A stretch of 64,000 bases of DNA from Marinicella sediminis (GTDB taxonomy: Bacteria > Pseudomonadota > Gammaproteobacteria > Xanthomonadales > Marinicellaceae), in the NCBI RefSeq assembly GCF_002000055.1, contig NZ_MVBD01000010.1:1-64000 (forward strand), read 5' to 3'. Position numbers and translations under genes: made by a program. Below, piece after piece: positions 46,643 to 55,911 of this stretch. Every line of letters begins with the position of its first letter. The stretch's first letter is position 1. Under the pieces are notes generated by a model. The model was not told where the DNA came from. It made no database searches and worked only from the letters and a program-made list of their open reading frames with translations.

Positions 46643-48796
46643 ATGACGCAATCCAGCCACCACCGCAGAATACAGGCATCCATGCCACTGAAAATCACGC
46701 ACACCCCGATCATTGACCAAGGCGTCGCCCACCAGAAAAGAGCTGAGATCAAGGCTCATTTCAGCAACACCTATGACACTTATGAACGGCTTTTTGAATG
46801 CCTCAAAGATGATGAAGCATACTATCTGAAACCAGAACCGCTGCGCCACCCGTTGATTTTCTATTACGCTCACACCGCCGTTTTCTTTGTCAACAAACTC
46901 AGGGTCGCTATGTTAATTGAGCACAACATCGATGACCGCATTGAATCCATGATGGCCATCGGGGTGGATGAAATGTCCTGGGATGACCTCAACGATGCCA
47001 ATTATGACTGGCCTGCAGTGGCCGAAGTACAGGCCTACCGGGATCAGGTCAGGGAGTTGGTATTGCAACAAATAGACGAATTGCCGCTGACCCTGCCTGT
47101 GGGCTGGGAAGATCCGTTCTGGATCATTCTGATGGGCATTGAGCATGAACGCATTCACCTGGAAACCTCTTCTGTGCTGATCAGACAAATGGACCTGAAA
47201 CACGTACGCAGTCACCAGGACTGGCCTCATTACCCGGATGATCATGACGCGCCTGACAACCATTTATTGCCGGTGGCAGGCGGAACAGTGGTACAAGGCA
47301 GGGAAAGACCCGGCTCGACCTACGGCTGGGACAATGAATATGGCCACAACCAGACCATTGTCAAAGAATTCAAAGCCAGTCAGTTTCTGGTCACCAACCA
47401 GGAATTCCTGAGCTTTATCGAAGATGGTGGCTACCTTGATCAACAGTGGTGGACCACCGAAGGCTGGCAATGGCGAACTTATAAAAATGCCGAGCATCCA
47501 ACTTTTTGGCTGCAACGCAATGGTCAATGGTATTACCGCACCATGACCGAAGAAATCACCATGCCCTGGAGCTGGCCAGTGGATGTCAACTACCTGGAGG
47601 CGAAAGCGTATTGCAATTGGCTGGCAGCACGTACCGGAAAGCCAATTCGCCTGCCCACTGAAGCTGAATACCTGCGCTTATATGATGCCACAGTCGGAGC
47701 TGTTTATCCGGAATGGGATCATCCACCAGGTAACATTGACCTGGCCTACACCGCCTCATCGGTACCGGTCGATTTATTCACCTTCGGAGCCCAGGGTTTT
47801 GGCGATGTACTGGGCAATGTATGGCAATGGACTGAAAGCGCCATTGATGGTTTTGATGGTTTCGAAGTTCATCCCAGCTATGATGATTTTTCAGTTCCCA
47901 CTTTTGACGGCAAACACAACCTCATCAAAGGCGGTAGCTGGGCAAGCACCGGTAACGAAGTACTTCGGGATGCCCGATATGCTTTTCGCCGCCATTTCTT
48001 TCAACACGCAGGATTCAGATACATAGAATCGGAGCACCAAGTGAACCAAAAATTCAATACCTACGAAACAGACGAACTCATTTCACAATACCTAGAATTT
48101 CATTATGGCGATGAATACTTCGGCGTACCCAACTTCCCCAAAGCCTGTATTGATGCCATCATTCCGCACATCGATTTGCAGAACAATGCACGGGCACTGG
48201 ACCTGGGTTGTGCAGTGGGCCGCAGTTCATTTGAACTGGCCAGGTATTTTCAACACGTCGATGCCCTGGACTTTTCCACACGCTTCATCCGCAATGCCAT
48301 TAACCTGGTAGAACATGGTGACGTTAAGTACCTGATCCCCATTGAAGGTGAAATCACAGAATTGAAATCATTCAGCCTCAGTGAGCTTGAGCTGGGTGAT
48401 CGGGCAAATAATGTCGAATTTGCCCAGGGAGATGCCTGCAATCTGAAGGACAAGTTCAGTGATTATGATCTGGTGTTTGCCGGCAACCTGATTGACCGGC
48501 TGTATCAACCCAGACAATTTCTGCAATCAATCAGTGAGCGCATCAAACCCGGTGGATATCTGGTAATTACTTCGCCTTACACCTGGCTGGAAGAATTCAC
48601 TGAGAAAGAAAACTGGCTGGGGGGCACCAAGGTCAATGGCGAAAACGTCACCACCCTGGATGCATTGCGTGCTGAACTGAAGCCTGGCTTTGCTGAAGTC
48701 ACATTGCCTCAGGATGTACCCTTTGTGATACGCGAAACCGCCAGAAAACATCAACATACAGTGGCCCAGTTGACCATTTGGAAAAAACATCAGTGA
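46643..48796 (+). CDS. ovoA: 5-histidylcysteine sulfoxide synthase/methyltransferase OvoA
   Basis: 717 residues in the OvoA order: an N-terminal DinB-like domain with the iron-binding motif EHERIHLE (about residue 165), a formylglycine-generating-like domain (NQEFLSFIEDGGY to FQHAGFRYIE), and a C-terminal SAM methyltransferase (ALDLGCAVGRSS at about 518). OvoA joins histidine and cysteine with O2 to the sulfoxide and later methylates the imidazole, making ovothiol A. The methyltransferase fusion separates it from EgtB. The start could also be the Met at 46682. It overlaps ovoB by four bases. Confidence 0.93.
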   Translation: MTQSSHHRRIQASMPLKITHTPIIDQGVAHQKRAEIKAHFSNTYDTYERLFECLKDDEAYYLKPEPLRHPLIFYYAHTAVFFVNKLRVAMLIEHNIDDRIESMMAIGVDEMSWDDLNDANYDWPAVAEVQAYRDQVRELVLQQIDELPLTLPVGWEDPFWIILMGIEHERIHLETSSVLIRQMDLKHVRSHQDWPHYPDDHDAPDNHLLPVAGGTVVQGRERPGSTYGWDNEYGHNQTIVKEFKASQFLVTNQEFLSFIEDGGYLDQQWWTTEGWQWRTYKNAEHPTFWLQRNGQWYYRTMTEEITMPWSWPVDVNYLEAKAYCNWLAARTGKPIRLPTEAEYLRLYDATVGAVYPEWDHPPGNIDLAYTASSVPVDLFTFGAQGFGDVLGNVWQWTESAIDGFDGFEVHPSYDDFSVPTFDGKHNLIKGGSWASTGNEVLRDARYAFRRHFFQHAGFRYIESEHQVNQKFNTYETDELISQYLEFHYGDEYFGVPNFPKACIDAIIPHIDLQNNARALDLGCAVGRSSFELARYFQHVDALDFSTRFIRNAINLVEHGDVKYLIPIEGEITELKSFSLSELELGDRANNVEFAQGDACNLKDKFSDYDLVFAGNLIDRLYQPRQFLQSISERIKPGGYLVITSPYTWLEEFTEKENWLGGTKVNGENVTTLDALRAELKPGFAEVTLPQDVPFVIRETARKHQHTVAQLTIWKKHQ

Positions 48797-49893
48797 AATT
48801 TGCACCGTTCAGGATGGCTGAATTCAGTGGTCAGTGGCCGCCAGGATCACTGACCAATCTGCACAGCAGCAATCCTCAACCCTTTGACTGGCAGGAACTG
48901 AACCAATTGCCGGGCATCGATTTGCAGCAGTTGCTCAACACCACTCCATTGGCCTACGAATCAACCCAGGGCAGACCTGCGGTGCGTTCAGCCATCTGTG
49001 ACCAGTACCACCAAAGTTTGCACATGAATGAGGTGGTGCTCACCAGTGGCGCCCAGGAAGGTATTTTTCTGGTTATGCAGGCTTTGTTAAAGGCTGGTGA
49101 TGAGGTCATTGCCTTTACCCCTTGCTTTGAGCCATTGATCACTGTGGCAGAAGAAACCGGAGCCATGCTCAAGCAGTTACCATTGATCGAACAAACTGCC
49201 TGGTCGATTGACTGGTCCGCTTTGCAATCTGCCATGACACAAAACACCCGGTTGGTGGTGGTGAATTTCCCGCACAACCCAACTGGTTGCCACCTCAATG
49301 AAACTGATTGGAAGAATTTACTGACTTTATGCGAACAGCATGATTGCTGGTTGTTTTCTGATGAAGTATTCAGAGGCCTGGAACATGACCCCGGTGATCG
49401 TCTGCCAGCCGCAGTCGATTGTTATGCCAAAGCCATTTCCATGGGTGTGGTTTCCAAATCTCTGGCCCTGCCAGGTGTTCGGCTGGGGTGGCTGAGTTGC
49501 CGGGATCAGCAGGTGCTACGCCGCCTCATGGCCATCAAGTCACATTTGTCAATTTGTCAGAGCAGCCTGGATGCCAGTCTTTGCGAACAGCTGATCCCCC
49601 ACAGTGAAGTTATCTGGCAACGCAATGTTCAGTTAATCAGACGCAACAAACATAAGATCATTGACTGGCTGGCCAACCAGACAGATTTCAATTGGCAGGA
49701 ACCAGTGGCAGCGGCCACCGGATTTGTACAGCTGAAGACCGGATCAGCCATGGACTTTGCCAGACAACTGGCTGAGCAGGAAAAATTGATGGTTATGCCT
49801 GGGATCGCATTCATGACCGATGTGGAAGGATTCAGACTGACCCTGGGCTTGGGTGATGAACAATTTGATTACCGGAGCATCAGGAAATTTTAG
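48793..49893 (+). CDS. ovoB: PLP-dependent enzyme, probable ovothiol sulfoxide lyase OvoB
   Basis: 366 residues from the GTG at 48793, in a GTGA overlap with the ovoA stop; an in-frame TTG at 48778 is the alternative. It has fold-type I aminotransferase motifs: LTSGAQEGIFLVMQAL, NFPHNPTGCHL, SDEVFRGLE and the PLP lysine in VVSKSLALPGVRLGW (about residue 222). Alone it looks like an aspartate aminotransferase relative. Tight coupling to OvoA makes it the likely C-S lyase that releases 5-thiohistidine. Its end overlaps the convergent GGDEF gene by 14 bases. Confidence 0.85.
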   Translation: MKFAPFRMAEFSGQWPPGSLTNLHSSNPQPFDWQELNQLPGIDLQQLLNTTPLAYESTQGRPAVRSAICDQYHQSLHMNEVVLTSGAQEGIFLVMQALLKAGDEVIAFTPCFEPLITVAEETGAMLKQLPLIEQTAWSIDWSALQSAMTQNTRLVVVNFPHNPTGCHLNETDWKNLLTLCEQHDCWLFSDEVFRGLEHDPGDRLPAAVDCYAKAISMGVVSKSLALPGVRLGWLSCRDQQVLRRLMAIKSHLSICQSSLDASLCEQLIPHSEVIWQRNVQLIRRNKHKIIDWLANQTDFNWQEPVAAATGFVQLKTGSAMDFARQLAEQEKLMVMPGIAFMTDVEGFRLTLGLGDEQFDYRSIRKF

Positions 49894-51688
49894 CCACCGG
49901 GGTCTTTGCCATTACTGATTGATAACTGACCACGCGGTTCCTGCCATTGTTTTTGGCTTCAAACAAAGCCAGATCGGCATGGGTCAGCAACATTGAAATA
50001 TTGTATCCTGACAACCCGGAATGAGATACCCCAAAGCTGGCGGTGACAGTCAGCTCAGCACCTGATTCTGCACAATCCATCATCTCAATGGCCACCCGCA
50101 TTTTGTTCATCAGATCGATCATTTGACAAGGTTCTATGCCTGGCGAGACAATGGCAAATTCTTCACCTCCCAAACGGGCAATCATGATGTCCTGATCGGC
50201 CACATCTTCGCAAGTCAGGATGGCTTGTTTCAATACCCAGTCACCAACCAGATGTCCATGTTCATCATTGACGTATTTGAAATGATCCAGGTCCATGATC
50301 GCCAGGTTAACCGGCTCATGTTTTGCTGAATTATTATCCAGCAAATCGCGCATCCGCTCTTCAAACGCTTTGCGGGTGTAGACCTGAGTGAGGTGATCAA
50401 TTTCGGCAACTTCTTTGAAGTAATCGTGTTTCCGTTTGATTTTGTAAGACCAGGCTCCCAAAAACAGTAACAGCGTCAGAATCAACAACATCATCAATTG
50501 CTGTTTCTTGGTGGTTTCTGCCGCCAGCTGATTTTCCAGTGCCAGCAAATCATTGCTTTGGTTCAGGCGTTCAATTTCCAGTTCCTGCACCAGGTTTTCA
50601 TGTATTGCCCGATAGTAGGCCACTTGCTTTGCTAATTTCTCATTGTACAAAGACTGTTCAATATCAGCTTTCGCTTTTAATGCAGCATATGCACTTTGCA
50701 TGTCATTACGCTTAACATATATTGACATCAGAACATCATGCACAACCAAAAGCTGTTCTGTCTCACCTATTGAAGCATTTTGATCTATCGTTAACAGCGC
50801 ATATTTTTCTGCATCTTCTAATAAGCCTGACAGATAAAAAATCTTTGATTTCAAGGAATTGTAATAAACCTTGAGATTTTTAAACTGAGTTTTTTCCACG
50901 CTGTCTTCTAATTGAACCAATTCATTCAGCGCATTTGATACTTGCAATTCTGATGACATTTCATTGACTGTATACCTGATAAAATCAAATTTCAAAAACA
51001 ATGCCGGTATTAAGTTTTCTGTTTCAGAACATTGATTTATGGCACTGAAAATTTCATCAGTAAACTGTTCACCATCGCCCTGACGCATGTATATTCGAAA
51101 TCGATTAAAATTTCCATAACACGTATCTGATTCGTTAGCCGGATTGGCCAACAGTAATTCTGCATACTTTAGACTCAGATCATCCTGATTGATAAGTCGG
51201 TAAATCATTGAGGCCACGTTATAAGTCTGGGTCTTCAAAAAATGATTATCAATTGTTTCAACCAGTTGAATAGAACGGTTAAGGTTTGAAACAGCTGATT
51301 CAAAATCACCTTTGATTACTTGCAAATTAGCCAATAAACTGTGAGCCCTGATATAAATGTTTTTATCATTGCACTCTTCTATCAGCTCTTCCAATGCACG
51401 TGAGCTGCTGTTGTAATCACCTTTAAAAGCCTCTGAGTAAATTTTCAGGTAACGAAATAAGCAACTTTCATAGAAAGTCATTTCACTTTCACTCGAATCC
51501 AGATCGATCAAAAGCGCATTGAATTGATCAACATTGCTCTTTCTTAAGCCCTCGGCAAAAACAAGCAATTCTTCAATGGATTTTTGATCATCATGGACCT
51601 GAGAGAATCCAAGCGAAACAACCATCATTCCCCACAAGAAAATCAGGTATGGAAATTTATGCAGAATCATAAATAGAAAACAAACCAT
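49880..51688 (-). CDS. TPR-containing membrane diguanylate cyclase (copy 2 of the borosin locus)
   Basis: 602 residues: signal/anchor (about 8-30), a periplasmic helical TPR-like region (about 40-365), a coiled coil (about 365-400), one membrane helix (MLLILTLLLFLGAWSYKIK) and a cytoplasmic GGDEF domain with active site RLGGEEF (about 507). GGEEF is compatible with c-di-GMP synthesis. It is a full-length paralogue of the protein at 52.5-54.3 kb, sharing KRHDYF/KRKHDYF, SEIDHLT, GHLVGDWVLK and HAD-ALFEAKN. The start ATG lies in the arm of a hairpin; Met7 (51670) is an alternative. It follows peptide 2 by 40 bases. Confidence 0.87.
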   Translation of the reverse strand: MVCFLFMILHKFPYLIFLWGMMVVSLGFSQVHDDQKSIEELLVFAEGLRKSNVDQFNALLIDLDSSESEMTFYESCLFRYLKIYSEAFKGDYNSSSRALEELIEECNDKNIYIRAHSLLANLQVIKGDFESAVSNLNRSIQLVETIDNHFLKTQTYNVASMIYRLINQDDLSLKYAELLLANPANESDTCYGNFNRFRIYMRQGDGEQFTDEIFSAINQCSETENLIPALFLKFDFIRYTVNEMSSELQVSNALNELVQLEDSVEKTQFKNLKVYYNSLKSKIFYLSGLLEDAEKYALLTIDQNASIGETEQLLVVHDVLMSIYVKRNDMQSAYAALKAKADIEQSLYNEKLAKQVAYYRAIHENLVQELEIERLNQSNDLLALENQLAAETTKKQQLMMLLILTLLLFLGAWSYKIKRKHDYFKEVAEIDHLTQVYTRKAFEERMRDLLDNNSAKHEPVNLAIMDLDHFKYVNDEHGHLVGDWVLKQAILTCEDVADQDIMIARLGGEEFAIVSPGIEPCQMIDLMNKMRVAIEMMDCAESGAELTVTASFGVSHSGLSGYNISMLLTHADLALFEAKNNGRNRVVSYQSVMAKTPVAKIS

Positions 51689-51703
51689 TTATAAAAATGG
51701 TTT
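51682..51703 (-). terminator. Hairpin between peptide 2 and the second GGDEF gene
   Basis: AAACCATTT and AAATGGTTT form a 9-bp stem with a four-base loop. On the minus strand it is followed by GTTTTC and contains the annotated ATG of the GGDEF gene. It may partly terminate the peptide message (giving more peptide than receptor) or mask the ribosome site. Confidence 0.4.
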
Positions 51704-51728
51704 GTTTGTTTGTTTGATTTAAGAATGA

Positions 51729-51890
51729 TTAATCTTCGTCATCATCACCTGGCTGATGAGCACATATCAACTCTATTGAGTTTAAATGAAGCTCCTTGAG
51801 TTGAGCTTCAGTAAAATACGCATTCACGTCAACTTTCTCAAATGTAACATCCTTGCCAAGTGCTTCCAGTTTCAAAATTAAATTTTTCAT
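51729..51890 (-). CDS. Small acidic-tailed peptide, paralogue of the borosin-type precursor
   Basis: A 53-residue gene below the usual length cut-off, with AGAGGT a few bases before the ATG. It begins MKNLILKLEALG, like MKINVRLLEKIG of the upstream peptide, and ends in LICAHQPGDDDED. That end matches the [VI]-C-x3-P-(G)-Asp-rich end of the other peptide. It sits immediately before a TPR-GGDEF gene, just as the other one does. Its middle is shorter and lacks the helical block of peptide 1, so it may or may not be a methylase substrate. A 7-4-7 imperfect dyad (51928-51945, GTTACCG/CGATAAC) lies upstream. Confidence 0.75.
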   Translation of the reverse strand: MKNLILKLEALGKDVTFEKVDVNAYFTEAQLKELHLNSIELICAHQPGDDDED

Positions 51891-51954: not shown

Positions 51955-52524
51955 CTAACACCAAAATGTTCCTGATTTGGGAACTAAACTCAGGGGATCT
52001 TGGGTATGCCATTGCTGGCACAGCTGTCCGGTTTTGCGATCAACATATCTTTGCCCCTTTTTCAGTCCCAATCCGGCATTGGCTTCCATGGCTGCCAAGT
52101 TGTCTACCCAGCACCGCACCACGACCTGTTCGATTTCTGGTTGACGAATCAACTGATTGATCAACAATGCTTTGGCCTGATGGGCTTTTTTCTGTCGTCT
52201 CCAGTTGGCAAGTATCATCACCCCAACATCCACCTCATTACGTAAAGCGGGTTGTTGCCAGTGCGCGCCAACCAAGCCGACTGCCTCGCCGTCTGACACG
52301 TTTTCTATCACCCAGGTCAAGTATTTGGGCTGCTTATCTTGATGGACCAACAAGGTCTGCTGTAAATAGCTCCTTGCCTGGGATTCATCCAATGTCCGGC
52401 CAATATGACGCATCACTTCAGGATCGCCATAAATCGCAAAGAACACCGCAAAATCAGCATCACTCACTAACCGCAGGGAGACATCACAGTCGGGGTGCAT
52501 GATGGACTGAATGTCCACCGGCAT
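51955..52524 (-). CDS. GNAT family N-acetyltransferase (copy 2 of locus)
   Basis: 189 residues of the RimJ/RimL type (PF13302-like): VSLRLVSDADFAVFF, PEVMRHIG, VGLVGAHW, EVDVGVMILANWRRQKKAHQA and CWVDNLAAMEANAGLGLKKG. Its start overlaps the stop of the first GGDEF gene (TGATG), so the two are translated together. Donor acetyl-CoA is expected; the acceptor is unknown. An alpha-amino group of the locus peptides is a reasonable guess. Confidence 0.82.
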   Translation of the reverse strand: MPVDIQSIMHPDCDVSLRLVSDADFAVFFAIYGDPEVMRHIGRTLDESQARSYLQQTLLVHQDKQPKYLTWVIENVSDGEAVGLVGAHWQQPALRNEVDVGVMILANWRRQKKAHQAKALLINQLIRQPEIEQVVVRCWVDNLAAMEANAGLGLKKGQRYVDRKTGQLCQQWHTQDPLSLVPKSGTFWC

Positions 52525-54332
52525 CAGCTTTTCACAGGCTGCTGATCATACACCTTGATCTGATTGCGCCCTTTGTTTTTGGCTTCAAACAGTGCAATAT
52601 CCGCATGGGTCAGCAGCATCGCAAGCTTGTAACCTGATGTGCCCGATGATGTCACTCCGAAACTGGCACTGACCGTCAATTCAGCACCTGAATCATCACA
52701 ATCCAGTTGTTCAATGGTTACCCGCAATTGTTCCAGTTTCGCTGTCATATCACTGGCACTTGCATCAGCCATTACAATGCAGAATTCTTCACCGCCTAAT
52801 CGGGCCAGCAGCATATTTTCTTCCATCAGCTCTTTACAGGCATACACCACGTTTTTCAGCACCCAGTCTCCCACCAGATGACCATGGGTGTCATTGACCT
52901 CTTTAAAGTGATCCAGGTCCATGATACTGACATGGACTTCTTTGTGTTGTTCCTGAGACTCTTCAAGCACTACTGAAACCTGTTCCTCAAAAGCTTTGCG
53001 GGTCAGTACTTTGGTCAAGTGGTCAATCTCAGACACATCCCTGAAATAATCATGTCGTTTTTTGATTTTAACCATCCACAACATCAACAAACCCAGCAGG
53101 GTCAGAATCAGCAGAATCACCAGTCGCTGGTTACTGGTTTCTTGCCGCGCCAGTTGTTTTTCCAGCGCCAGCATGGTGTTTTGTCGGTTTAATTGCTCTA
53201 ATTCAAAGCCTTTGGCAAGATTGGAATGTTTTACGGACATAAATGCCATTTGTTTGGCTTGTGATTCATCGTAAACCTTTAATTCTGCTTCATTACGCTG
53301 TCTCAGAAGTTCATAAGACCGGGCATAATCTCCTTGTTCCCTGGCAACCTGCTCCAGCACTTCCAGGGCCATGATCAACTGCCCGGTATTGCCCAGTGTG
53401 GCATTCAAAAGCAGGGTTTCCTCACCCATGGCTTTGGCCTTTTCATGGTCTTTCCGGAGGAGAGCCAGCTTGCTCTCAATGGCCATAAAAGATGCTTTCA
53501 CATTGACGTAGGGGGTTTGTGATAATTCCTCGCGTACCTGCTCCAGGGTGGCGTCAATTCGATTCAGATCAGCTTCAGCTTTGAGTTCATTTTGTAACTG
53601 ATTTTTGACATGATTGAGGATCATGGTTTGTGACAACAACAGGTTACCACTGCTGCGGCACTGCTGAGCGTATGAATTGATGGTAATCAAGCCGATACCG
53701 CTGTTCGGGTCTTCCAGGATTTGTTCAACTTCATAATAACGAAGCCGGCACAGGTTTTCATCGCTTGGTGAATTGTTGTACAGCAGTTGACTGTATTCGA
53801 CACTCAGGTCATATTGGTCCATGACACTGTAGACAGTTGACGCCCCGGAATATGCAATGCTTTTGGTCATGCTGTCTTCCGTTTGATTGGCGTTCTGAAT
53901 CGCATTGTCAATTTGCTCAGAAGCCTTCAGATAATCTCCACTGATGGCACTGATGTTGGCTATCAGGGCATTGATTCTGATTTTTGCCCGTAAATCTTCA
54001 CACAGCGGCAATACCTGCTCCATGTCTTCCACGGCTTGTTTTGCCTGTCCACTGAAAGCTGTGCGATAAGCCTTGAGAAATTGATAGTGGCACACCTGAT
54101 AGGAAGACATGGCATCCTGCCTTTGGGCCAGCTGGTCCAAACCCTGGCTGAATCCTTGCGGATCACTCAGGCGCAACTCTTCCAGGCGCAGGATTTCCTC
54201 AGTGATGCTCGCCGGTTCACCCGTGAGTACCTGTGCACCTGAAACCACTGTCACCAAAAACAACAAAGCAGTCATAAGTATTTGCTTGAATGACTGCTTG
54301 TCTGAATATATGAGTCTGGTATTCAATGGCAT
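52524..54332 (-). CDS. TPR-containing membrane diguanylate cyclase (copy 1 of the borosin locus)
   Basis: 602 residues: signal/anchor (about 14-33), a periplasmic TPR-like helical domain (about 40-370), a coiled coil, one membrane helix (RLVILLILTLLGLLMLWMV) and a GGDEF domain with RLGGEEF (about 512). It starts 12 bases after the borosin-type precursor and is translationally fused by overlap to a GNAT. The layout suits a receptor that senses a periplasmic ligand and makes c-di-GMP. Whether the ligand is the modified peptide is inference. Confidence 0.88.
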   Translation of the reverse strand: MPLNTRLIYSDKQSFKQILMTALLFLVTVVSGAQVLTGEPASITEEILRLEELRLSDPQGFSQGLDQLAQRQDAMSSYQVCHYQFLKAYRTAFSGQAKQAVEDMEQVLPLCEDLRAKIRINALIANISAISGDYLKASEQIDNAIQNANQTEDSMTKSIAYSGASTVYSVMDQYDLSVEYSQLLYNNSPSDENLCRLRYYEVEQILEDPNSGIGLITINSYAQQCRSSGNLLLSQTMILNHVKNQLQNELKAEADLNRIDATLEQVREELSQTPYVNVKASFMAIESKLALLRKDHEKAKAMGEETLLLNATLGNTGQLIMALEVLEQVAREQGDYARSYELLRQRNEAELKVYDESQAKQMAFMSVKHSNLAKGFELEQLNRQNTMLALEKQLARQETSNQRLVILLILTLLGLLMLWMVKIKKRHDYFRDVSEIDHLTKVLTRKAFEEQVSVVLEESQEQHKEVHVSIMDLDHFKEVNDTHGHLVGDWVLKNVVYACKELMEENMLLARLGGEEFCIVMADASASDMTAKLEQLRVTIEQLDCDDSGAELTVSASFGVTSSGTSGYKLAMLLTHADIALFEAKNKGRNQIKVYDQQPVKS

Positions 54333-54344
54333 AAATGACGGGTT

Positions 54345-54551
54345 TTACTCTTCCCCATCATCACCTGCATCATTTGCATCATCGTCGTCATCGGGTAACA
54401 ACAGACACACCATATCCTGGTTTTGTTTGATCATTTTTTTAAATTGGTATTGGCTCACACCGAACTTATTTGCCATCTGGGTTATTGAGGTCACCTGATG
54501 AACAGATTGAGACTGGCCAATTTTTTCCAATAGACGCACGTTGATTTTCAT
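54345..54551 (-). CDS. Candidate split-borosin precursor peptide
   Basis: 68 residues with a good AGAGGA ribosome site. Residues 1-45 form a helical leader resembling a borosin-binding/NHLP-like domain (LLEKIG, then SITQMANKFGVSQYQFKKMI). Residues 47-53 are MVCLLLP, followed by a poly-Asp tail. In Shewanella SonA the methylated residues lie in a hydrophobic C-terminal segment after such a leader, so V48 and L50-L52 are the candidate alpha-N-methylation sites. It lies 62 bases after the methyltransferase and 12 before GGDEF copy 1. Confidence 0.8.
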   Translation of the reverse strand: MKINVRLLEKIGQSQSVHQVTSITQMANKFGVSQYQFKKMIKQNQDMVCLLLPDDDDDANDAGDDGEE

Positions 54552-54573
54552 TGAATATCCTCTTTTGGTTTTG

Positions 54574-54602
54574 TTATTAAACGCTCAACACACAGTGAGC
54601 AA
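54574..54602 (-). promoter_or_regulatory. Candidate internal promoter before the precursor peptide
   Basis: TTGCTC (54597-54602) and TAATAA (54574-54579) on the minus strand are 17 bases apart, giving a start near 54567, just before the ribosome site. A precursor-specific promoter would give more peptide than enzyme. Confidence 0.4.
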
Positions 54603-54613
54603 AAAAAATCATA

Positions 54614-55393
54614 TCATGAATCACTGATGTGCACCAACTGATTTATTTTTTGTTGATTTTTGGTTTTTTTCAACCCTGGGGGGATAACCAGCGTGCTTTT
54701 CATGCTCAAAGTTGTCTTTGCCAGATCTGCCAGCTCAAGCTGCTTAATCATTGGCTCTTCTATTGGTAAAACCGCGCATTCATAGATGATGACCTGGTGA
54801 TCAGATGGGTAGGTTTCCAACAACAAATCGACCAGCAACTGACGTGCTGCGACCTGAGTTTCGAATACTTTCAAGCTGCGGTCACCGGCCAGACTGACTT
54901 GCCAGATAATCAAATACGCCGTGGGGTCAAAGCGGGTCTCATTGAACATGAAATTATTGGCCTCATAATGAGCACAGCCATGTGTTCCGGGATCAATGCC
55001 CAAATCAGCATACAGACAGTCCTCAGCAGAGACACCAGGCTCCATATGGGCCTTGAAACCCTCTGCCCTGGCCATGCGGATGGTTTCATGCGGTGTCAGG
55101 GCAAACACCCCAGGGTGACCATAAAAAGCCCCGACCACTTTTTTACCGGCCCTGACTTCGGTCATGATGGCATCATTCATTTCAGCATAGGTTTGTTTTC
55201 GTGATTTACCTTCCGCATACAAGGGCTGCAAGCTGATGACTTCATCATTCATGGTTTTCACCCACTCTTCGACCAGCTGATTGGATGCCGCCACAAAAAC
55301 CACATCCGCCTGTTCGATGAAATTTCTGGATAAGGGTGTGATGTGTGATCCCAGGGTCATACCCAGGCCCACATTGACTAAACTGCCTTTCAT
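54614..55393 (-). CDS. Borosin-type peptide alpha-N-methyltransferase (SonM-like)
   Basis: 259 residues from the ATG at 55393, in an ATGA overlap with the GNAT stop; the longer frame upstream is GNAT sequence. It has the tetrapyrrole-methylase fold: GSLVNVGLGMTLG, ADVVFVAAS, the SAM site YGHPGVFA (about 91-98), MEPGVSAEDCLYADLGIDPG and NNFMFNETRFDPTAYLIIWQ. Tyr59, Arg65 and Tyr69 repeat the spacing of the catalytic Tyr66-Arg72-Tyr76 of the fungal borosin enzyme OphMA, and length and blocks match SonM of Shewanella oneidensis. It methylates backbone amides. A cobalamin-pathway methylase is less likely: no cobalamin synthesis genes adjoin it. Confidence 0.88.
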   Translation of the reverse strand: MKGSLVNVGLGMTLGSHITPLSRNFIEQADVVFVAASNQLVEEWVKTMNDEVISLQPLYAEGKSRKQTYAEMNDAIMTEVRAGKKVVGAFYGHPGVFALTPHETIRMARAEGFKAHMEPGVSAEDCLYADLGIDPGTHGCAHYEANNFMFNETRFDPTAYLIIWQVSLAGDRSLKVFETQVAARQLLVDLLLETYPSDHQVIIYECAVLPIEEPMIKQLELADLAKTTLSMKSTLVIPPGLKKTKNQQKINQLVHISDS

Positions 55394-55911
55394 TGATTTA
55401 ATTGCTCCATGGTGACATTCCACCGGTTTTTGTTGTGGTGACGAGCAGAATTGGACAGGTTTGCCACCCGTTGGAATCCCAATTTCCTGCAACCTTCATT
55501 GGCACTGACGTTGTGTTTATCGATAAAACAACACAATAACTGGACTGGTTGAGTAAAGAACTCGCCACTTTGTCTCATCAAGGGCAACAATGCGGACCGG
55601 CTCAACCCATGTTTCTGATATTCCGGCCTGATCATGATGCCAAATTCTACTGCCTGCAATGAGTCACGCCAATGGAGACTGATCAAGCCTGCAAAGGCCT
55701 CTTCAGTCTGATGAAAAAGCAACCTGACCAATGCCTGCCGGCATTGTGACTGCTGAATCAGTTTTTGGGCCAGCTGCGTCGCTTGCCTGAGACTTAAAGG
55801 CGGACCAATGTGTTGCATCATCAACTCATGTTGATACAAACCGGCCATAAGCCCAGTATCAGACATGCCTGGGGACCTGCTGTAAAATCCGTCAGAACCA
55901 ACCAATTCCAT
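55390..55911 (-). CDS. GNAT family N-acetyltransferase (copy 1 of locus)
   Basis: 173 residues of the RimJ/RimL-like type: LMMQHIGPPLSLRQA, AVEFGIMIRPEYQKHGLSRSAL (acetyl-CoA loop) and FIDKHNVSANEGCRKLGFQRV. It is the first gene of the borosin-like operon and is joined to the methyltransferase by an ATGA overlap. It starts back-to-back with mtfA with about 60 bases between starts. Acetylation of the peptide N-terminus, or of a transport or immunity target, is possible but unproven. Confidence 0.82.
   Translation of the reverse strand: MELVGSDGFYSRSPGMSDTGLMAGLYQHELMMQHIGPPLSLRQATQLAQKLIQQSQCRQALVRLLFHQTEEAFAGLISLHWRDSLQAVEFGIMIRPEYQKHGLSRSALLPLMRQSGEFFTQPVQLLCCFIDKHNVSANEGCRKLGFQRVANLSNSARHHNKNRWNVTMEQLNQ

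Follow-up and report, generated by a model that had tools for sequence, protein, structure and literature searches.

A split-borosin operon of Marinicella sediminis in which precursor genes directly precede genes for membrane TPR-like diguanylate cyclases

RESULTS

Gene content of the operon

The window, i.e., the whole 64-kb stretch of DNA that was analyzed, carries on its minus strand seven closely spaced co-directional genes running from position 55911 to 49880 (Table 1). Their order is GNAT1, methyltransferase, precursor 1, DGC1, GNAT2, precursor 2, and DGC2, and the same order is found in Marinicella meishanensis, the closest named relative found, whose methyltransferase is 81% identical. 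The preliminary description of this DNA had presented a single enzyme-precursor pair. That pair is real, and both the 259-residue enzyme and the ORF of the 68-residue peptide beside it were confirmed on the minus strand, but a second precursor and two TPR-diguanylate cyclases had been missed. The methyltransferase gene was taken to start at the ATG at 55393, the mechanical ORF, opened by an upstream TTG, being 292 aa long.

AGAGG ribosome-binding sites are present at both precursor genes, and the gap to the following cyclase gene is 13 nt for precursor 1 (DGC1) and 41 nt for precursor 2 (DGC2). A hairpin located after precursor 2 overlaps the ATG listed first for DGC2 and could give a high peptide-to-receptor ratio. 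The two cyclases share 38% identity across 570 residues. A GNAT-like gene lies directly 5' of the methyltransferase gene in 17 of the 25 loci of the host family (L049–L073). No exporter or protease gene was seen in the operon, and a search of the own genome at E ≤ 1e-3 returned no second methyltransferase copy.

Table 1. Features of the operon in the 64-kb window
Feature	Position	Strand	Basis
GNAT1, GNAT-family acetyltransferase, first operon gene	55393..55911	-	Pfam Acetyltransf_3, 45 bits
SonM-type peptide backbone N-methyltransferase, 259 aa	54617..55393	-	phmmer, 242 bits to SonM; catalytic residues
Precursor 1, 68 aa	54348..54551, stop codon to 54345	-	Family alignment; profile chain to SonA
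Putative core of precursor 1, residues 47–53 (MVCLLLP), including Cys49	54393..54413	-	Cys49/Pro53 conservation; SonA analogy
Acidic tail of precursor 1, residues 54–68	54348..54392	-	Sequence; acidic tails in relatives
DGC1: N-terminal hydrophobic segment, TPR-like domain, TM helix (405–423), GGEEF cyclase	52527..54332, stop codon to 52524	-	Pfam GGDEF, 121 bits; TPR_12, 24 bits, below the cut-off of 30
DGC1 sensor domain, aa 34–402, with Cys195 and Cys225	53127..54233	-	AlphaFold2 model; family profile
GNAT2, GNAT-family acetyltransferase	51958..52524	-	Pfam Acetyltransf_3, 68 bits
Precursor 2, 53 aa, putative core about residues 40–48 (ELICAHQPG)	51732..51890, stop codon to 51729	-	Precursor profile
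13-bp hairpin between precursor 2 and DGC2	51678..51707	-	Pattern scan only; terminator-like features
DGC2, second TPR-like GGEEF diguanylate cyclase	49883..51688, stop codon to 49880	-	Pfam GGDEF, 117 bits

The methyltransferase

A phmmer search against the PDB gave 242 bits with SonM and about 161 bits with OphMA, and all 25 distinct PDB sequences matched at E ≤ 1e-3 were borosin methyltransferases. The Pfam TP_methylase model was passed at 73.8 bits, as expected for the whole superfamily; the NCBIfam tetrapyrrole-methylase models scored 13–27 bits and YabN 61 bits, all far under their cut-offs. Since every PDB match was a borosin enzyme and the tetrapyrrole models remained far under their cut-offs, the reading of the enzyme as part of a split borosin, proposed in the preliminary description, is supported, and by its sequence it is a SonM-type backbone N-methyltransferase. 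An identity as a tetrapyrrole methylase was rejected on the same scores and matches.

The spacing of Tyr59, Arg65, and Tyr69, previously pointed out as that of the borosin catalytic residues, is borne out by the presence of each of them in 38/38 aligned relatives, and both SonM-type blocks named there, GHPGVFA and MEPGVSAEDCLYADLGIDPG, occur in the enzyme sequence. Glu144, Trp164, and Gln165, conserved in at least 37 of the 38 relatives, align with Glu146, Trp166, and Gln167 of SonM, which are described as part of an active-site-closing network (PMC8429565).

The precursor peptides

Other genomes encode relatives of precursor 1 in the same position; these share its leader motif and have an acidic tail, and those of the host family also have the Cys. 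In two of six species pairs, those where both rates could be estimated, dN was below dS (0.50 and 0.18). Because related peptides occupy the same position elsewhere and dN is below dS, the precursor 1 ORF is more than a chance reading frame. In the alignment of 27 host-family precursors, where two V start residues are written as M, Met1, Glu9, and Cys49 are invariant, and Leu8, Gly12, Ser16, Gln19, Pro53, and Asp55 are nearly so. The core of precursor 1 likely corresponds to residues 47–53, by analogy with SonA. No evident signal sequence was noticed in the precursors by eye.

A further 25 precursors, 24 of them from outside the host family, consist of a related leader, a short stretch, and an acidic tail, and some contain the Cys. 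Acidic tails were found across the host order, and the Cys is often absent outside the host family. The possibility that the tail is a local accident was rejected, as it recurs in relatives. The combination of a free Cys and an acidic tail had been suspected to be an unusual feature of a new precursor class; with Cys invariant in the 27 sequences and acidic tails present across the order, the class is indeed distinct, but it is widespread and not a local oddity.

The earlier assignment of the precursor to the SonA type holds in part. The profile of the 25 other precursors, built without Shewanella rows, reaches SonA at an E-value of 3.7e-6 and aligns to the host-family precursor profile at 95% probability, but a direct search with the host-family profile alone did not reach SonA. 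Another precursor profile, A1, matches SonA; it was not used, since it contains Shewanella rows and represents an upward-biased control. Judged by sequence, the precursors are thus distant relatives of SonA, through a chain of profiles only.

With the precursor profile, precursor 2 came up as the second match in this genome (E-value of 2.5e-11), both precursors found here being themselves rows of the profile used for the search. A third precursor was not found in this genome, where the sole other profile match (E-value of 0.8) is inside a 772-residue frame. In one other locus (L138, genome G588), three precursor-like peptides lie in a row before a single cyclase.

The sensor-cyclases

The gene after each precursor encodes a protein that has a hydrophobic segment at its N terminus, then helical repeats over about 370 residues, a single transmembrane helix, and a GGEEF cyclase domain. 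The intact GG(D/E)EF motif is present in DGC1, DGC2, and 48 of the 51 cyclase hits scanned, the three exceptions being truncated at contig ends; second copies account for six rows of this set. The N-terminal hydrophobic segment passes the hydropathy cut-off in most of the cyclases, not in all, and hydropathy places the sensor domain outside the cytoplasm in DGC1, DGC2, and in general.

The isolated DGC1 sensor gave no Pfam TPR match. The profile of the sensor family matches TPR proteins in the PDB (best E-value of 2.6e-12), TPR_12 is matched at E ≤ 0.1 by 45 of 72 family members, and AlphaFold2 modeled the DGC1 sensor as helix pairs ending in one long helix (pLDDT 93.8, pTM 0.87). On the basis of the family profile, the TPR_12 matches, and this predicted structure, the DGC1 sensor is TPR-like. 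Cys195 and Cys225 (DGC1 numbering) are invariant in 72/72 aligned sensors; because they lie in neighboring helices of the model, a disulfide between them is plausible.

Two other cyclases of the own genome (L078, L082) are TPR-like by alignment, and no such peptide was found upstream of either; the same is true, in relatives, of L200 and L201, two weaker paralogues of the sensor.

Linkage of sensor and methyltransferase genes

The methyltransferase is present in 25 of 33 host-family genomes, 144 of 299 genomes of the order sample, and 9 of 369 genomes of the class sample, this genome among them. A locus was scored as containing a sensor if the sensor profile gave at least 20 bits with a same-strand gene lying no more than 3 kb downstream or directly upstream, or with a domain fused to the methyltransferase. 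The count comprised 111 rows, 108 of which were usable; L055 and L072 (negative) and L065 (positive) were set aside for their short downstream flank. L204–L218, which had been retrieved on account of their multiple sensors, were omitted, and L048, with its two half frames, was counted once. In the 108 usable loci, the sensor was downstream in 79, upstream in 8, fused in 3, and absent in 18.

Among the 86 loci not chosen by sensor content, 79 had a sensor (78 downstream, 1 upstream); 40 order regions included here were hand-picked among the better matches for genus spread and multi-copy genomes. The seven negatives are five distant relatives (L118–L122), L143, and the second methyltransferase copy in L133, alongside which there is only a 75-residue cyclase fragment. 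The other 22 loci come from 19 genomes, 17 of which were chosen because an earlier search had found no sensor; a sensor was recorded in 11 of these loci (7 upstream, 3 fused, 1 downstream). The remaining 11 (L245–L255) include L255, scored as negative although its methyltransferase ORF is over-long and overlapped by a sensor-cyclase ORF. In six of these 11 loci (L245, L246, L247, L249, L250, L251), a GGDEF protein with an unrelated N-terminus is encoded about 1.8 kb upstream on the same strand, perhaps another borosin-GGDEF pairing.

At the level of genomes, the order sensor query detected the sensor in 118 of the 144 order genomes with the methyltransferase vs 8 of the 155 without it (Fisher's test, 2.6e-46, with relatedness ignored). 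In the host family, with the DGC1 sensor as the query, the figures were 25/25 and 3/8, respectively. Genome G002, which has no methyltransferase match, retains an intact sensor-cyclase ORF (L193, 2407–4215). The ORF preceding it contains a leader-like stretch with neither an acidic tail nor a core motif, and the locus was read by eye as decayed.

Variant arrangements

In three genomes (L221, L222, and L226 in G503, G602, and G550, respectively), a TPR-like sensor, a transmembrane helix, and a GGDEF domain are fused before the methyltransferase in one ORF. Precursor-cyclase pairs with no methyltransferase in the 6–11 kb covered were found in L196, L197, L198, and L199, the genomes of which encode the methyltransferase on another contig. 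In the L204 array, five cyclases are grouped around one methyltransferase; some cyclases of such arrays have no precursor of their own by the filter used.

The cyclase may also be replaced. L047 and L116 encode, after a SonA-like precursor, a TPR protein carrying HisKA, HATPase, and receiver domains, and the TPR protein of L046 reaches the contig end within a kinase H-box, as judged by eye. These three kinase-type loci are diverged and lack the Cys pair.

Two loci (L236 and L237 in G535 and G472; longer stretches L252 and L253) contain a 540-residue ORF with two tandem SonM-type methyltransferase domains and show no sensor neighbor in the stretch covered. In Shewanella sp. KJ10-1 (L048), the SonM-type gene is split over two frames.

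Co-variation of cores and sensors

Candidate peptides, some of them false ORFs (L156, L205, and the second of L210), could be paired with 98 of 129 cyclases. Of these pairs, 88 were kept, and manual removal of 12 loci whose core anchors were misplaced or unusable left 76 pairs, 69 of which have the methyltransferase in the locus. For these 69 pairs, the distances of cores correlated with those of sensors given the methyltransferase (partial Mantel r of 0.32, P of 0.001), and the correlation of cores with methyltransferases given the sensor was 0.01 (P of 0.40). The leader was correlated with both partners, with values of 0.48 for the methyltransferase given the sensor and 0.33 for the sensor given the methyltransferase. 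Five further subsets yielded 0.35–0.45 for core and sensor given the methyltransferase, and −0.08 to 0.08, nominally significant in two subsets, for core and methyltransferase given the sensor. The association of core and GGDEF domain given the sensor amounted to 0.07 in the full set, 0.11–0.14 in three subsets, and about zero in two lineage subsets. Mantel tests are lenient on related sequences.

Swapping partners within loci keeps the genome fixed and is therefore a cleaner test. For ten loci with two pairs each, the core-sensor fit of the real arrangement was matched by 2 of 1,024 arrangements, the real one included, vs 772 for core and GGDEF domain, 209 for leader and sensor, and 349 for leader and GGDEF domain. 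Ligands and their receptors would give such a pattern in the sequences, but it is no proof of contact, and joint duplication of neighboring genes contributes to it.

DISCUSSION

Relation to known systems

The enzyme and the precursors belong to the split borosins, and a GGDEF-sequence-containing domain is already named among borosin architectures in the legend to Figure 1 of PMC11395268, where it may denote the fusion that L221, L222, and L226 show. The type IV split borosin SonM-SonA of Shewanella oneidensis, as described in PMC8429565, likewise comprises a separate enzyme with the catalytic Tyr/Arg/Tyr and an adjacent short precursor. SonA as presented there differs in that it lacks an acidic tail and that the core stretch shown is free of Cys; in comparison, the Marinicella operon has a shorter leader, an acidic tail, and two precursor-cyclase pairs per enzyme. 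A TPR-like cyclase follows the precursor in five Shewanella relatives (L042–L045 and L048), strain MR-1 not being among them, and the words diguanylate, GGDEF, TPR, and cyclase are all absent from the main text of PMC8429565. In the literature covered, no paper joined borosin with di-GMP or with tetratricopeptide, and an earlier statement of the GGDEF link is possible.

Control of a GGDEF cyclase through TPR domains is described in the abstract on RcbA-RcbB of Vibrio vulnificus (PMC12282931), in which the cyclase is repressed by a TPR domain and released from this repression by a partner that the same operon encodes. That partner is a TPR protein and not a modified peptide, and the abstract names no methyltransferase.

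The RRNPP receptors, such as Rap and AimR, are cytosolic TPR superhelices that bind a peptide encoded alongside, and their peptides are not known to be N-methylated. The sensor family shares the TPR superhelix with them. However, since the hydrophobic segment and the transmembrane helix put the sensor outside the cytoplasm, as judged by hydropathy, whereas RRNPP receptors are cytosolic, it was not filed in this group. The matches of the sensor profile to AimR (E-value of 0.005) and RapJ (0.007) in the PDB stand among many generic TPR matches and reveal no special kinship.

Proposed function and alternatives

That a split-borosin pathway is part of the explanation we regard as highly probable from the sequence data. 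The peptides are considered as signals read by the sensors because each precursor gene lies directly before the gene of a membrane sensor that makes c-di-GMP, and a signal is the most likely product of the operon. By homology to the characterized pair, the enzyme would dock on the precursor leader in the cytoplasm and would methylate backbone amides of the short hydrophobic core preceding the acidic tail. The core would then be released by a protease and reach the periplasm via an exit route. Gene order and co-variation suggest that the N-methylated core could bind the periplasmic TPR-like domain of the adjacently encoded protein and that the bound sensor would switch the GGDEF domain, thereby changing c-di-GMP. 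One methyltransferase would serve two precursor-receptor pairs in this genome. We lean, with some reserve, towards the view that borosin cores are ligands of the adjacent periplasmic TPR-like receptors.

The relation may be the reverse, with c-di-GMP made at the membrane gating the methylation, export, or expression of an ordinary borosin. The cyclases fused before the methyltransferase or encoded directly upstream of it would suit such local control of the enzyme. However, this explanation is unlikely given that the core pairs specifically with the sensor and not with the GGDEF domain, that some precursor-cyclase pairs are located away from the methyltransferase, and that a TPR kinase takes the place of the cyclase in diverged loci.

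The precursor or its methylated form might instead never be exported and act as an intracellular regulatory subunit of the cyclase, in line with the precursors having no evident signal sequence by eye and the operon no visible export gene. Since hydropathy puts the very domain that co-varies with the core outside the cytoplasm, we consider such a role quite improbable.

It is very unlikely that the operon makes an ordinary secreted borosin, e.g., an antimicrobial, with the cyclase merely hitch-hiking. In its favor, the literature covered assigns no established role to the products of bacterial borosin pathways; against it, the association extends across many genera, with the sensor encoded downstream, upstream, or as a fusion, and is seen across genomes in the co-occurrence counts. 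A small-molecule tetrapyrrole methylase next to an unrelated peptide can be dismissed, for the TP_methylase cut-off is expected to be passed by the whole superfamily and the PDB matches and tetrapyrrole-model scores all speak for a borosin enzyme.

When the bacterial split borosins were described, none of their pathways had yet been connected with a final natural product (PMC8429565). Returning to the reading of the cores as receptor ligands, the pairing and fusion of the genes, the swapped output, and the co-variation of core and sensor point towards one specific role of these peptides, as signals for membrane TPR sensors setting c-di-GMP. If true, a RiPP class would gain a function and a family of orphan cyclases a ligand, and the peptides and receptors would form a naturally matched set of pairs. 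More tentatively, and with somewhat less than even confidence, we propose that the split borosins of this lineage serve as N-methylated peptide signals, which dedicated, co-inherited TPR receptors sense outside the cytoplasm, and that the output of these receptors can be swapped between c-di-GMP synthesis and phosphorelay. The system would then constitute a Gram-negative counterpart of TPR-based peptide quorum sensing, in which one enzyme serves several signal-receptor pairs.

Elsewhere in the window, a single ORF (46643–48796) contains DinB-like, sulfatase-modifying-factor-like, and methyltransferase domains, a set that we take to be the make-up of a fused ergothioneine enzyme.
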